A DNA stretch of 51,071 bases from Azotobacter chroococcum. GTDB lineage: Bacteria > Pseudomonadota > Gammaproteobacteria > Pseudomonadales > Pseudomonadaceae. Within the stretch, counting starts at the first letter, position 1. Each line of letters opens with the position of its first letter. The notes under the pieces were generated by a model that ran no database searches, was not told the origin of the DNA, and saw only the letters and a list, made by a program, of their open reading frames with translations. The DNA is taken from contig NZ_SMMU01000025.1 of NCBI RefSeq assembly GCF_004339665.1, positions 1 through 51,071 on the forward strand, written 5' to 3'. Shown here piece after piece: positions 1,887-39,960 of this stretch. The position numbers and the translations under genes are program-made.

Positions 1887-2348
1887 TCACTCCATCGCGA
1901 AATCGAGCTGACGCCAGGCCTCGTAGACTGCCACGGCCACCGTGTTCGACAGGTTCAGGCTGCGGCAGTCGGGGCGCATCGGCAGGCGCAGGCGCTGTTC
2001 CGGCGGCAGGCTTTCGCGGATCTCCTGCGGCAGGCCGCGGCTTTCCGGGCCGAACAGGAAGGCATCGCCGCGCCGGTAGCTCACGCTGTGATAGGGCTGC
2101 GATCCCTTGGTGGTGAAGGCGAACAGGCGCGGCTGGCCGAGGCTGTCCAGGCAGGCGGACAGGTCGGCATGGCGCTTGAGGGTGGCGTACTCGTGGTAGT
2201 CCAGCCCGGCGCGGCGCAGGCGCTTGTCGTCCAGCTCGAAACCCAGCGGGTCGATCAGGTGCAGGCTGCAGCCAGTGTTGGCGCAGAGCCTGATGATGTT
2301 GCCGGTGTTCGGCGGGATTTCCGGTTGGAAGAGGATGACGTGAAACAT
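1887..2348 (-). CDS. trmL: tRNA (cytidine(34)-2'-O)-methyltransferase TrmL
   Basis: TrmL is a dimeric SPOUT-class enzyme that 2'-O-methylates the wobble base 34 of two leucine tRNAs with S-adenosylmethionine. The 153-residue product shows the start MFHVILFQPEIPPNTGNIIR, the FGPESRGLP loop near residue 103 and the C-terminal MRPDCRSLNLSNTVAVAVYE that forms the trefoil-knot cofactor pocket. Length and motifs match the YibK/TrmL family. The ATG at 2346-2348 is set by that N-terminus; longer in-frame extensions run into the intergenic region. It converges on secB across a shared terminator. Confidence 0.94.
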   Translation of the reverse strand: MFHVILFQPEIPPNTGNIIRLCANTGCSLHLIDPLGFELDDKRLRRAGLDYHEYATLKRHADLSACLDSLGQPRLFAFTTKGSQPYHSVSYRRGDAFLFGPESRGLPQEIRESLPPEQRLRLPMRPDCRSLNLSNTVAVAVYEAWRQLDFAME

Positions 2349-2639
2349 GCACGGCTCCAGGCGGGGAGGCCGGCATTCTACCCTGCCGCTGCACCCTTGC
2401 CGTACCTGAGGCACCGTCTCTGCCCGCTGGCTGTGCACGCTGCGGCTGGGGTCGGGGGGGCGGTATCGGCGCTGCCGGAGGAGGGCGTCTGACGCCTGCA
2501 GGGCCGGCTGGAGGCATAAAAGAGGGGAGTTCCCGGCCTGCCTGTACCGGGGTCCCCGAAACCTTTGCCAGATTTTATGCATCCTGTGTGCCAGGAATTT
2601 CGGACCTGAGCGACAGGACAGGACCGGTCCGGCAAGGCA

Positions 2640-2657
2640 TGTAGGCAAAGGCTTACA
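2640..2657 (+). promoter_or_regulatory. GacA-type upstream activating sequence
   Basis: TGTAGGCAAAGGCTTACA has two six-base arms around a six-base spacer. It differs from the published GacA box (TGTAAG, six bases, CTTACA) at one position. It lies about 55-75 bp before the probable start of the GGA-rich RNA that follows, the arrangement seen for rsmX/Y/Z genes under GacS/GacA control. GacA binding is inferred from the match and the downstream RNA. Confidence 0.8.
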
Positions 2658-2680
2658 TGGTGTGATGGTGATCACGACTG

Positions 2681-2707
2681 TTTACCCTGCGGGGGGATGC
2701 ATATTCT
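2681..2707 (+). promoter_or_regulatory. possible promoter of the Rsm-type RNA
   Basis: A TTTACC at 2681 and a TATTCT at 2702 could be -35 and -10 elements. Their spacing of 15 is shorter than ideal, as often found in promoters that need an activator. Transcription would begin near 2713. Confidence 0.4.
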
Positions 2708-2712
2708 ATTGC

Positions 2713-3057
2713 TCAAGGACGTCGCGCAGGAAGCGCACCGAAAAACAGGGAAGGCGTCGCAGGCCCCCGCCAGGATGGCAGGTGATAGGGAGGTCGCGCA
2801 GGAGGCGCATCGAACGGCAGGGATGTCGTCGAGAATTCACCGGGAGGGTGAAGCCGCAGGGATGGTTGGCGCAGGATGCGTTGGGGAACTCAGGGATGAT
2901 CGCCAGGATGGCGTTGCTCATGGATGATGTGCGCAGGATGCGCGGCGAAACTCATGGATGGCTCAGGGACGATTCAGGGATGCTCTGCCAGGATGGCGGA
3001 TAGTCACGGATGTCAGAATCAGTCTGCAAGACCCCGCTCTGCGGGGTTTTCTTTTTT
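2713..3057 (+). ncRNA. RsmX/Y/Z (CsrB-like) regulatory RNA
   Basis: No protein is supported here. The strand instead carries about 21 GGA motifs in some 300 nt, many written as a short stem with AGGA or GGGA in the loop: 2724-2736 (GCGC-AGGAA-GCGC), 2769-2779, 2796-2808, 2838-2850, 2870-2880, 2901-2913, 2931-2943 and 2987-2997. Such hairpins are the binding sites of the translational repressor RsmA/CsrA, which these RNAs titrate. A GacA-type box lies upstream and a strong terminator ends the unit. The predicted length of about 345 nt and the motif number are close to enterobacterial CsrB and well above the 110-170 nt, few-site RsmX/Y/Z RNAs usual in Pseudomonas. The 5' end is approximate. Two shorter RNAs in tandem are an alternative, but no inner terminator is visible. 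Confidence 0.82.
3031..3057 (+). terminator. intrinsic terminator of the Rsm-type RNA
   Basis: CCCCGC (3032-3037), a TCT loop and GCGGGG (3041-3046) are followed by TTTTCTTTTTT. This is a textbook intrinsic terminator. Confidence 0.92.
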
Positions 3058-3085
3058 GTGCGCTCCGAAAGGGCGCATCCTGCGT

Positions 3086-3985
3086 TCAGCCGTGGGCCTC
3101 ATGAAGGCCGGGCATCCCTTCCAGCAGCGAGTGCAGCAGATCCAGCATGCCCTGCTGGCGTTGTGCGTCGCGATAGACCAGTCCCATCTTCAGCGGTATG
3201 CGCGGCTCGCTGAGCGGTTTCCACAGCAGGTCCGGGTGGCTGTGCGGCGGGCGCGAGCAGCCCGGCAGCACAGTGGCCAGGGTCGTCTGCGGCAGGCTGT
3301 CGAGAATGCTGTTCATGTTGTTCAGCTCGGCCTGCACCTGCGGACGGCGGCCGAGCATGGCGAGCTGCTCCTGCCAGATCTGCCGCACGCGGAACTCCTC
3401 GCCGAGCAGCAGCATCGGCAGCTCCGCTGCCTGGGCCAGGGAAACCTTCTTGAAGTCCTTCAGCGGATGGTTCTCCGGAATCACCAGCTGCAGCTCGTCC
3501 TCGTACAGCGGCAGGCTGTGCAGCCCGGGCTGGCGCGGCGGCAGGAAGCCGATACCGATATCCAGGGTGCCGGTCAGCAGGCGCCGCTCGATATCGATGC
3601 CGGACAGTTCGTAGAGCTGTACCACCAGATGCGGCTGTGCCTGGCGCAGGCGCTCCAGCAGCGGCGGCACCAGGCTGGTGCTGACCGTCTGCAGCACGCC
3701 GACCGCCAGGCTGCGCGCCGACTGCCCGCGAAAGGCGCGCAAGGCATCGCGGGCGCGCTCCAGGCCATCCAGCAGCGGCACCGCATGGCTGTACAGGGTC
3801 TGTGCGGCCAGGGTCGGCAGCAGGCGCTTGCCGGTGCGTTGAAACAGGTTGACGTCGAGGTCCGTCTCCAGGTGGCGGATCTGCTGCGAGAGCGCCGGCT
3901 GCGACAGGCTCAGCCGCTCTGCGGCGCGCCCGACATGGCCTTCCTCGTACAGCGCCACGAAATAGCGTAGCTGGCGAAAATTCAT
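3086..3985 (-). CDS. LysR-family transcriptional regulator
   Basis: The 299-residue protein starts MNFRQLRYFVALYEEGHVGR and has the winged helix-turn-helix of LysR regulators (about residues 1-60, with AAERLSLSQPALSQQIRHLE as recognition region). A two-lobed periplasmic-binding-like effector domain follows (about 90-290). It resembles the CynR/CysB-like branch, but the effector cannot be read from sequence. It is divergent from the aminotransferase-like gene, with 265 bp between the starts. The AT-rich spacer next to its start contains the dyad TTATCAATAA (3995-4004), a candidate autoregulatory site. Regulation of the neighbour is the usual LysR pattern but is inference here. Confidence 0.88.
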   Translation of the reverse strand: MNFRQLRYFVALYEEGHVGRAAERLSLSQPALSQQIRHLETDLDVNLFQRTGKRLLPTLAAQTLYSHAVPLLDGLERARDALRAFRGQSARSLAVGVLQTVSTSLVPPLLERLRQAQPHLVVQLYELSGIDIERRLLTGTLDIGIGFLPPRQPGLHSLPLYEDELQLVIPENHPLKDFKKVSLAQAAELPMLLLGEEFRVRQIWQEQLAMLGRRPQVQAELNNMNSILDSLPQTTLATVLPGCSRPPHSHPDLLWKPLSEPRIPLKMGLVYRDAQRQQGMLDLLHSLLEGMPGLHEAHG

Positions 3986-4250: not shown

Positions 4251-5429
4251 GTGCGTGATGCCTTGGCCTGCATGCGGATGATGCGCACCATGGAGCGTCC
4301 GTCGCAGCTGTTCGTGCGCGGCCAGGGTTCGTGGCTGTGGGATATCCAAGGCAATGCCTACCTCGACTTCACCCAGGGGCTGACGGCAAACAGCCTGGGG
4401 CACAGCCCCAGCGTGCTGGTGAGCGCCCTGCGGCGTCAGGCGGAAAGCCTGATCAACCCGGGCGCCGGGTACTACAACCTCGGCATGCTCAAGCTGGCCA
4501 CACGCTTGTGCCAAGCCACCGACAGCGATCAGGCGTACTTCCTGAGCAGCGGTGCCGAGGCCAGAGAGGCGGCAATTCGCTTGGCGCGCAAGTGGGGGTG
4601 GCTGCATCGCGGCGGTGCCGGGCGCATCGTCACTGCGTTCGACAGCCCTGCTGGCGGTACTCGAGGGGCCTTGGCAGCTTCGGGCTGCATGTCCCCGAGG
4701 GACAAGGACGGTACGTCGGGTTTCGCCAGGGTGCCCTTCAACGATCTGGAGGCGCTGGCGGCCGCACTCGACGAGCAGACCGTGGCGGTGATGCTGGAGC
4801 CGCTGCAGGGGGAGGCGGGAGCGATCCCGGCGAGCCTGGAATACCTGCAGGGCGTCACTCGGCTGTGTAACGAGCGGGGCCTGCTGCTGATCCTCGACGA
4901 GGTGCAGACCGGGATCGGACGTTGCGGGGTGCTGCTGGCCGAGGAACTGTATGGCGTGCGTGCCGACATCATCGCGCTCGGTACGGGTTTGGGGGGCGGC
5001 GTGCCGCTGGCGGCCCTGGTGGCCCGTGGCAGTGCCTGCTGCTTCGAGCCGGGCGATCTGGTCGGCAGTTGCCACGGCAATGCGCTGGCGACCGCTGCCG
5101 GTCTGGCGGTGCTCGAGACCGTACTGGAGCCGAGCTTTCTCGAGCACGTTCGCGCAGTCGGCGAGCATCTGCGCAAGGGGCTGGCACAACTGGCCCGCCA
5201 TCATGGCCATGGTCCGCTGCGCGGTCAGGGCCTGTTACTGGGTTTGCCGCTGGTCGGCCTGTCGGCCCCGGCGGTGGTGGAAGCGGCGCTGAAGGAGCGT
5301 CTGCTGATCAATGCGCCGCAGGCGCACTGTCTGCGCTTTTCACCGGCGCTGACGGTCAGTCACGGCAACATCGACGAAATGCTCAAGCGCCTGACGCGTG
5401 CGCTTGGCCGGATCTCCGGCCGAAACTGA
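4251..5429 (+). CDS. class III aminotransferase-like protein lacking the PLP lysine
   Basis: This 392-residue product has the fold-type I layout of acetylornithine/ornithine-type aminotransferases: LDFTQGLTANSLGHS near residue 38, FLSSGAEAREAAIRLARK near 97, VMLEPLQGEAG near 180 and ILDEVQTGIGR near 214. The lysine that forms the Schiff base with pyridoxal phosphate should stand in the GKGLGGGxP motif. Here the motif reads LGTGLGGGVP, with threonine 245 (codon ACG, 4983-4985). The SFHGRT-like cofactor loop is also replaced by DSPAGGTRG (about 131-139). The reading frame is intact, so this may be a non-catalytic relative or a recently decayed gene. The GTG at 4251 is preferred because GAGGAG (4238-4243) precedes it by seven bases; an ATG at 4272 is the alternative. 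The LysR gene is divergent. Confidence 0.82.
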   Translation: MRDALACMRMMRTMERPSQLFVRGQGSWLWDIQGNAYLDFTQGLTANSLGHSPSVLVSALRRQAESLINPGAGYYNLGMLKLATRLCQATDSDQAYFLSSGAEAREAAIRLARKWGWLHRGGAGRIVTAFDSPAGGTRGALAASGCMSPRDKDGTSGFARVPFNDLEALAAALDEQTVAVMLEPLQGEAGAIPASLEYLQGVTRLCNERGLLLILDEVQTGIGRCGVLLAEELYGVRADIIALGTGLGGGVPLAALVARGSACCFEPGDLVGSCHGNALATAAGLAVLETVLEPSFLEHVRAVGEHLRKGLAQLARHHGHGPLRGQGLLLGLPLVGLSAPAVVEAALKERLLINAPQAHCLRFSPALTVSHGNIDEMLKRLTRALGRISGRN

Positions 5430-11324: not shown

Positions 11325-11996
11325 ATGTCCGATCGGTCCGAAGCGCCGCCTGCCCAGGAGCCGCTCAACGCCATCGAGGTCCGCATTCTGGGTTGCCTGA
11401 TCGAGAAGCAGGCGACCACCCCGGAAAGCTACCCGCTGACCCTCAATGCCCTGGTGCTTGCCTGCAACCAGAAGACCAGCCGCGAGCCGCTAATGAACCT
11501 CGGCCCCGCTCAGGTCGGCCAGAGTCTGCGCCAACTGGAGGGACGCTCGCTGGTGCAACTGGTCATGGGCAGCCGGGCGGACCGCTGGGAGCACCGCCTC
11601 GACAAGGCCCTGCAACTCACGCCGCCGCAGCTGGTGCTGATCGGGCTGCTGCTGCTGCGCGGCCCGCAGACCGTCAACGAGCTGCTGACCCGCAGCGCCC
11701 GCCTGCACGACTTCGACGACGGCGCAGACCTGCAGCACCAGCTGGAGCGACTGATCGGTCGTGAGCTGGTCTGCCGACTGCCGCGCCAGTCGGGGCAGCG
11801 CGAGGAACGCTACATGCACCAGCTGGGCACGCCGGAGGATCTGGAGGAGCTGCTGGCTGTGCGTGCGACCCAGGCGACGGGTAGCGACGGGGCGGCGAGT
11901 GGGCGGATCGAGGCGTTGGAGGCGCGCATCGCCGAGCTGGAGGAGCGGCTGGCGAAACTGGAAGGGGAACTGGCGGGCGGCAGGCTGCGGGAGTAG
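11325..11996 (+). CDS. YceH family protein (DUF480)
   Basis: The 223-residue protein matches the YceH/DUF480 family by [20 protein letters not shown] at the start and [20 protein letters not shown] soon after. Structures of the family show two winged-helix domains (about residues 15-95 and 97-180). The last 30 residues ([19 protein letters not shown]) form a short coiled coil. The cellular role is not established. The ATG at 11325 follows GGATGTTCTGCC and matches the family N-terminus. Right after the stop come two hairpins that also end the RNA encoded on the opposite strand. Confidence 0.88.
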
Positions 11997-11997
11997 A

Positions 11998-12035
11998 CCG
12001 TGCCAAAGCACGGAGGGGAGCCTGAGCTCCCCTCC
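11998..12035. terminator. tandem hairpins shared by yceH and the Crc-type RNA
   Basis: CCGTGC-CAAA-GCACGG (11998-12013) overlaps by two bases GGAGGGGAGC-CTGA-GCTCCCCTCC (12012-12035). Both stems are perfect. Neither has a clear T-run, but the position after yceH and at the end of the minus-strand RNA suggests bidirectional termination. Confidence 0.6.
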
Positions 12036-12370
12036 AAATCGACTTTGTGCTTTGTTCTTCTTGTGCTCGATCTGTTGTTGTTCTTGTCGACCGCCACCCT
12101 GAAGATGCTTCAGTCGGCCCCAGCCGGGCCAAGAGCAAACGTATTTCTTTGATCGCCGATATCGCGATGATCACCAGGTGATCCAGTCAGTCCGGGCGCT
12201 ACCTCAAGGTAGTTTTATTGTTCTCTGTCCGACTGCGGGGACTAGACCCCGAAACGCGTATCCTCTCCAAAAAAATCAGTTTGCGCCGTCTCTGCCGTGC
12301 TTATTTTTATTGTGTCAGAGTCGTTTCATGTTGTTGTTCTTTAGAGATGCCGTTTTTTATTTTTGTTGTG
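11998..12370 (-). ncRNA. CrcZ/CrcY-type small RNA that sequesters Hfq/Crc
   Basis: The minus strand carries six CA-rich motifs of the AANAANAA kind: 12352-12369, 12329-12342, 12301-12315, 12213-12224, 12073-12085 and 12051-12064 (for example AAGAACAACAACA). In pseudomonads such motifs bind Hfq with Crc. RNAs packed with them (CrcZ, CrcY, CrcX) relieve carbon catabolite repression when CbrA/CbrB is active. A strong sigma-54 promoter places the 5' end near 12370, exactly at the first CA motif, and stable hairpins end it near 12000. The length of about 370 nt fits CrcZ. No protein is encoded on either strand. Which of the named paralogs it is cannot be decided here. Confidence 0.85.
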
Positions 12371-12380
12371 CATGAGATAG

Positions 12381-12396
12381 AGCATTACCCGTGCCA
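12381..12396 (-). promoter_or_regulatory. sigma-54 promoter of the Crc-type RNA
   Basis: The minus strand reads TGGCACGGGTAATGCT. GG (12395-12394) and GC (12383-12382) are ten bases apart and TGGCACG matches the -24 consensus fully. The predicted start is near 12370. Confidence 0.85.
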
Positions 12397-39527: not shown

Positions 39528-39960
39528 GGGGAGTCGCTTTACCTTGTGTGATGAGAAGTCACGACAGGAGCGCTGCCAGGGGCAACTTCCTGCTGGCCAG
39601 GGTGGCGTCGGGTGTGCTCATGTCGATATCCCTGACTCTTCTCGGTTGAATGACCCATCGAAAGAGGACATGCGCAGTCTTGCCAGGCATTGCTGCATTC
39701 ACTCGGGCGGCCTGATCCGCACGCGACGCGACCGCACTGCAGGCACGGGGTACCAGCAGGGGCGAGTGAAAGAGCAATAGTTCAGAAGCGAGCACAGAAA
39801 CCGTGTCGACATACAAAACTGGCGGTCCCGCTATCATCGGAAAATTTCCTTTAGACCGGAGACTTTGCGTCGCCATCTTTCGATGGTTTTGCCTTTTTCA
39901 GTTCAGCTTCCGCTCACGTGGAGTGAGTTGACCAAGGGAGCGAAGCTGTGGTGCTGTCCA

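Follow-up and report, generated by a model that had tools for sequence, protein, structure and literature searches.

Rsm RNAs present GGA motifs to RsmA/CsrA dimers and thereby titrate them; E. coli has for this a long CsrB with many sites, and the pseudomonads have several short Rsm RNAs. A locus of Azotobacter chroococcum raises the question of which of these kinds of sponge it encodes and how such an RNA could have come about. It lies in contig NZ_SMMU01000025.1, of which the whole stretch analysed, 51,071 nucleotides, is called the window here. In it, an initial annotation had proposed an Rsm RNA with the size and the site number of CsrB, placed behind a GacA-type box.

The GacA-type upstream box TGTAGGCAAAGGCTTACA is located at 2640..2657 on the plus strand and was found to agree at 11 of the 12 defined positions (one mismatch), as annotated. 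It is the only match with two or fewer mismatches in the 51-kb window, and shuffled versions of the window contained 0.14 such boxes on average, 14 of the 100 shuffles having one. In A. beijerinckii (11 of 12) and A. vinelandii (10 of 12) the box is found at the corresponding place, as it is in a fourth Azotobacter genome (G002). A -10-like hexamer, TATTCT (2702..2707, plus strand), lies 44 nt 3' of the box, and this is the usual spacing, the gap being 44-45 nt in all 24 Pseudomonas rsmY loci measured. A consensus scan from 2400 to 3150 found no sigma-70-type promoter pair. The transcription start would be at 2715, a position which we presume by analogy with known RsmY start sites. From there the predicted RNA covers 2715..3056 on the plus strand, about 342 nt, and ends in an intrinsic terminator with a T run (3028..3056, plus strand). 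The terminator-like site at 3028-3050 is the only one on this strand between 2400 and 3150, which bears out the strong terminator described earlier at the end of the RNA; the internal terminator that the initial annotation had named as a sign of two short RNAs was not found on the plus strand before 3028.

The stretch 2691-3040 has 22 GGA motifs and the predicted RNA 21, in agreement with the first estimate of about 21 in about 345 nt. In 1000 dinucleotide shuffles of 2691-3040 the count was 13.0 +/- 2.5 and at most 20 (plain shuffles reached 21), and in 300 dinucleotide shuffles of the predicted RNA it was 12.1 +/- 2.4 and at most 18. Moreover, this is the densest 345-nt stretch for GGA on either strand of the window, with 22 motifs here and at most 15 on the plus and 14 on the minus strand at other places. 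By a stem rule of at least four pairs, 12 of the 21 motifs can occupy hairpin loops, compared with a mean of 2.2 and a maximum of 7 in dinucleotide shuffles. At least eight motifs had been annotated in perfect short hairpins, a number that this rule allows, with the qualification that 300 shuffles in which the GGA motifs were fixed gave a mean of 4.6 and a largest value of 12, level with that observed. The fold of the whole RNA was not unusually stable compared with shuffles (z 0.05), and among the folds of the four modules described below, that of module 2 alone leans to unusual stability (z -1.74, with -0.72, 1.08 and 0.29 for the other three). The likeness to CsrB in size and in number of sites (about 350 nt and about 18 or more sites) is also real, at 342 nt and 21 GGA.

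The covariance search which had been suggested as a check has given a match over the cut-off for RsmY and for neither of the other two families. The 3' part of the RNA (2920-3050) matched the RsmY model (RF00195) with 67.4 bits against a cut-off of 57, which supports the proposed Rsm RNA behind the GacA-type box, and two weaker tandem RsmY matches below the cut-off lie upstream, at 2715-2795 (32.9 bits) and 2787-2870 (31.8 bits). The PrrB/RsmZ model (RF00166) scored 14.4 bits at this locus against a cut-off of 44, and RsmZ identity was rejected on this score; the CsrB model (RF00018) gave a whole-length match of 29.4 bits against a cut-off of 71. At the cut-off, Rfam annotation labels just the last 131 nt of the long RNA as RsmY. 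No RsmY was found elsewhere in the genome at E <= 0.001, which leaves one RsmY locus. The RNA departs from the usual RsmY size (about 120-130 nt with 7-8 GGA), this size being a habit of the family and not its definition.

The neighbouring genes were compared with those of other rsmY loci. A convergent gene for a LysR-type regulator lies at 3086..3985 on the minus strand, and it is the conserved rsmY neighbour. Its protein has 96% identity with A. beijerinckii and 93% with A. vinelandii, which places the host in Azotobacter. With the LysR protein, 46 Pseudomonadaceae loci were fetched (2 Azotobacter and 44 others), and a GacA box with an ordinary RsmY occupied this site in 32 of the 44 non-Azotobacter loci. 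The RNA measures 120-132 nt with 7-8 GGA in 24 of these 32; the ends of the remaining eight were not parsed, and they are of the same size by eye. In the other 12 of the 44 (L015, L017, L018, L019, L021, L025, L026, L029, L037, L053, L054 and L055) the box search over the 1.5 kb on the rsmY side of LysR gave no GacA box, so the rsmY-LysR link is not universal. Behind LysR, a class III aminotransferase gene (4275..5429, plus strand; acetylornithine-transaminase-like, below the curated cut-offs shown, with an uncertain start codon) is shared by both Azotobacter loci; among seven Pseudomonas loci compared, six have it (in one the match covers only 41 residues) and L051 does not. On the other side of rsmY lies trmL (1887..2348, minus strand); A. 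beijerinckii and A. vinelandii have it there together with secB, and the seven Pseudomonas loci have neither within about 4 kb. The earlier remark that a position next to trmL differs from known rsmY loci is hence right for one side only, because the LysR side is conserved and trmL is absent from the seven Pseudomonas loci; this absence suggests that the trmL side of rsmY was rearranged in the Azotobacter lineage. Since the 3' part of the RNA is over the RsmY cut-off, the genome has this sole RsmY locus and Pseudomonas rsmY has the same LysR neighbour, we identify the predicted long RNA as the RsmY orthologue in Azotobacter.

At about 2350-2640 of the window, the block with secB and trmL meets the one with rsmY and LysR. 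A partial NrsZ-like sRNA (2443..2643, minus strand; 50.8 bits, below the cut-off of 76.9) is divergent from rsmY. It has a sigma-54-type box TGGCACACAGGATGC at 2593-2579 with one mismatch, such boxes being no rarer than chance in the window; the box occurs, with variants, in the four Azotobacter, and the NrsZ body seems by eye to be gone in A. vinelandii (L014). The window also holds a full-length CrcZ sRNA (11980-12369, minus strand; 307.6 bits), with a sigma-54-type box (12382-12396, minus strand) about 12 nt upstream, and a c-di-GMP-I riboswitch (39818-39903, minus strand; 77.1 bits).

The length of the RNA is accounted for by four modules on the plus strand. Module 1 (2719..2790) and module 2 (2791..2863) correspond to the two RsmY matches under the cut-off, module 3 (2864..2925) forms a direct repeat with module 4, and module 4 together with the conserved RsmY 3' end (2926..3021) falls in the match over the cut-off. 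Every module combines hairpin GCGCAGGANGCGC, exact or slightly varied, with a CA-GGA stretch, another hairpin carrying GGA and a final GGA stretch. The direct repeats, of 43 nt and 81% identity between modules 1 and 2 (2717/2789) and of 42 nt and 79% between modules 3 and 4 (2857/2919), show the duplication directly. An RsmY match over the cut-off with further tandem matches was found in all four Azotobacter genomes searched, and each of the four RNAs has four modules: 342 nt with 21 GGA in the window, 339 nt with 22 in A. beijerinckii, 344 nt with 22 in A. vinelandii and 336 nt with 20 in G002. Matching modules are 75-98% identical across species and different modules within one RNA 51-77%, and it is because of this better agreement across species that we place the four-module expansion before the four Azotobacter species compared. 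A tree built from 19 modules gave one group each for modules 1, 2 and 3 (bootstrap 91, 97 and 93%) and a weak one for module 4 (56%). Modules 1 and 2 fell on the side of Pseudomonas RsmY with 3 and 4 opposite (89%).

The second hairpin of the module retains its predicted pairing through changes on both sides. Among 28 hairpins (16 from Azotobacter and 12 hand-picked among 32 from Pseudomonas), 17 have G-C as the third pair counted from the loop, 8 have A-T and 2 have G-T, the pair being broken in 1, and the fourth, fifth and sixth pairs are formed in 24, 21 and 19; these counts come from kin sequences and so are not independent events. The hand-picking mostly removed repeats, and also L052, in which the hairpin is shifted, and L043, which was not parsed. 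In a re-count of 35 hairpins, the 16 from Azotobacter and the 19 brought into register by script out of all 32 from Pseudomonas (13 were not), the third pair was G-C in 21, A-T in 11, G-T in 2 and broken in 1.

We consider it very probable that the Azotobacter rsmY RNA has grown in place, from one core module to four, and that it is made as a GacA-driven transcript of about 342 nt which sponges many RsmA dimers. The ancestral core module would have consisted of hairpin GCGCAGGANGCGC, a single-stranded CA-GGA, hairpin CGCCAGGATGGCG and again a single-stranded CA-GGA, and it would have been multiplied to four tandem copies with the promoter and the 3' end unchanged. Two or more shorter Rsm RNAs (RsmY1/RsmY2) could instead be produced from the same locus by an internal promoter or by processing, which appears improbable to us. 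The last module with the 3' end alone resembles a complete RsmY, and a table in PMC7366521 gives RsmY1-2 for A. vinelandii, which could mean two RNAs, but passages of PMC12923157 and PMC11330419 have one RsmY. Module 1 carries the canonical 5' end, and the canonical 3' end follows module 4, with no plus-strand terminator before 3028, no sigma-70-type promoter in 2400-3150 (consensus scan only) and no second GacA box with two or fewer mismatches in the window.

That the RNA should be a true member of the CsrB family, acquired or retained, is very unlikely. Its size, its GGA number and the weak whole-length CsrB match would fit such an origin, but 29.4 bits is far under the CsrB cut-off, and membership was rejected on this score; RsmY is over its own cut-off, and synteny and module structure tie the RNA to RsmY. 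A chance GGA-rich or coding stretch hardly comes into question, since the open frame at 2662-3003 (113 codons), although it covers much of the RNA, is not kept across the four Azotobacter species because module 1 measures 72, 78, 71 and 71 nt in them, the longest frame differs between species, promoter and terminator are conserved, and the GGA count is above that of all 1000 dinucleotide shuffles. We retain the growth of rsmY in place, and infer one full-length transcript with a capacity above that of an ordinary RsmY.

The genome assembly (4.86 Mb, 99 contigs) has one CsrA-family gene, and its product is identical, letter for letter, to the A. vinelandii RsmA as printed in a passage of PMC12889724. 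RsmZ matches over the cut-off were found at eight places (G000, contigs C2, C8, C9, C12, C16, C26, C51 and C64); the A. vinelandii papers count seven or eight. Six of the eight were parsed and carry 5-9 GGA each: in five a terminator ends an RNA of about 141-190 nt (the longest value probably runs past the true end), and in the sixth no end was parsed. By eye, the remaining two do not differ much in size, and their boxes agree at 11 and 9 of 12 positions. The RsmZ loci look ordinary, and among the Rsm RNAs of this genome RsmY alone is long.

GacA-dependent rsmY has already been reported for A. vinelandii. According to passages of PMC12923157 and PMC4824345, stationary phase induces RsmZ1-7 and RsmY there, and a gacA mutant lacks this induction; RsmA governs the translation of algD, phbR and arpR, and it is RsmZ1 and RsmZ2, not RsmY, that these passages name as shown to bind RsmA. 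By analogy, GacA-dependent transcription would be expected for the long RsmY described here, which is likely a GacA-controlled sponge with a high capacity for RsmA. With GacS/GacA active, GacA would act at the box and one transcript of about 342 nt would be formed; its 21 GGA sites, about half of them loop-capable, could bind many RsmA dimers at once, and this capture would free the RsmA-repressed mRNAs (in A. vinelandii, algD, phbR and arpR). Binding and titration of RsmA are predicted here from the GGA sites and the hairpins. Compared with an ordinary RsmY, the long one would have roughly three times as many sites on a single promoter, so that each transcription event would free more mRNA from RsmA. 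Further, a proposal in a passage of PMC7911923 holds that in P. brassicacearum more GGA go with a longer RNA life, and if this link between GGA number and half-life holds, the long RsmY may also be longer-lived.

Longer forms of RsmY were also seen outside Azotobacter. The CsrB model was used as a detector of long RNAs in 248 family genomes and matched 12 of them, none over the cut-off; as this search missed the fourth Azotobacter, it is no full census of long RsmY in the family. It brought out a series in genus g5, in which five genomes carry, next to an acyl-CoA dehydrogenase gene, long RNAs rich in GGA that follow a GacA-type box; in other g5 genomes a short RsmY has the same site and similar ends. 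The dehydrogenase gene was present with 85-100% identity in all 11 g5 loci compared (9 genomes), and through it 30 loci (among L112-L115, L117 and L132-L161) were examined from 37 g5 genomes, 36 of the 37 having a match and 6 of those no fetched locus. First 20 of the 30 loci were measured, and the other 10 with a looser pattern (nine of 126-168 nt, and G023 with 199 nt). Over the range of 116-511 nt and 6-36 GGA, 23 of the 30 are short, with 14 at 116-121 nt (6-7 GGA) and 9 at 126-168 nt (7-9 GGA), and seven are longer, at 195, 199, 268, 284, 353, 433 and 511 nt with 11, 11, 18, 18, 22, 28 and 36 GGA, respectively. The steps of about 80 nt between the three longest suggest gain of modules; in self-comparison of six of the longer RNAs, the best shifted identity was only 35-45%.

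Since relatives of both lineages carry short forms at the corresponding site, two independent elongations of RsmY, in Azotobacter and in g5, are the simplest reading. We regard it as probable that RsmY length is an evolutionary dial, turned by in-place growth through GGA-hairpin modules in at least two lineages and reaching or passing the size of CsrB. Such growth would mean that many-site sponges of CsrB type can arise repeatedly from the small RsmY.

Other candidates for long RsmY were considered and set aside. Long distances between box and LysR had suggested a long RsmY in relatives of P. citronellolis/P. nitroreducens, and this was rejected because the extra length is behind a normal terminator. 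Four CsrB-search matches in g6/g15 are by eye not like long RsmY, and a compact-RsmY pattern, present in 141 of the 248 family genomes, was rejected as a length test as it also matches coding sequence and the last Azotobacter module. Genus g6 showed series of three to five matches to the RsmY model (29-41 bits, under the cut-off) spaced about 228 nt apart (G066:C1:1082525-1083550; G082:C2:98630-99656; G119:C1:2734677-2735469; G074:C1:2655205-2655770; G058:C12:26123-26690). These are tandem arrays of short Rsm genes, perhaps of the rsmX type.

Orthologous rsmY genes in short, intermediate and long forms, with the same kind of promoter, make up a natural series of sponge capacity. If the reading of length as a dial is true, the amount of RsmA that a single transcript buffers may depend on its number of sites, and the relation of site number to RsmA titration and to RNA stability is directly testable along the short-to-long series, with alginate, polyhydroxybutyrate and cyst lipids as outputs in A. 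vinelandii. Our searches of the open-licence PubMed Central literature gave no published description of a long RsmY. Lopez-Pliego et al. (2020, Arch Microbiol 202:579) have reportedly studied A. vinelandii RsmY, and the A. vinelandii rsmY locus found in our analysis is very probably the gene of that study.

In comparison to the known systems, the Azotobacter RNA shares with Pseudomonas RsmY (RF00195) the GacA box, the gap from box to -10, the 5' hairpin GCGCAGGAAGCGC, the 3' end with its terminator and the LysR neighbour, whereas Pseudomonas RsmY has one module, 120-132 nt and 7-8 GGA in place of four modules, 336-344 nt and 20-22 GGA. Duplication raises sponge capacity in tandem rsmX as well (rsmX-1/rsmX-2 in P. 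brassicacearum, up to five copies in P. syringae), but the unit duplicated in that case is a whole gene of about 110 nt, and in Azotobacter it is the module within one RNA. With enterobacterial CsrB (RF00018), which has 18 CsrA sites in E. coli according to a passage of PMC7366521, the likeness is in size and number of sites. Unlike CsrB, whose cut-off of 71 bits stands far above the score reached here, the Azotobacter RNA is built from RsmY modules, and hence its likeness to CsrB is likely convergent.
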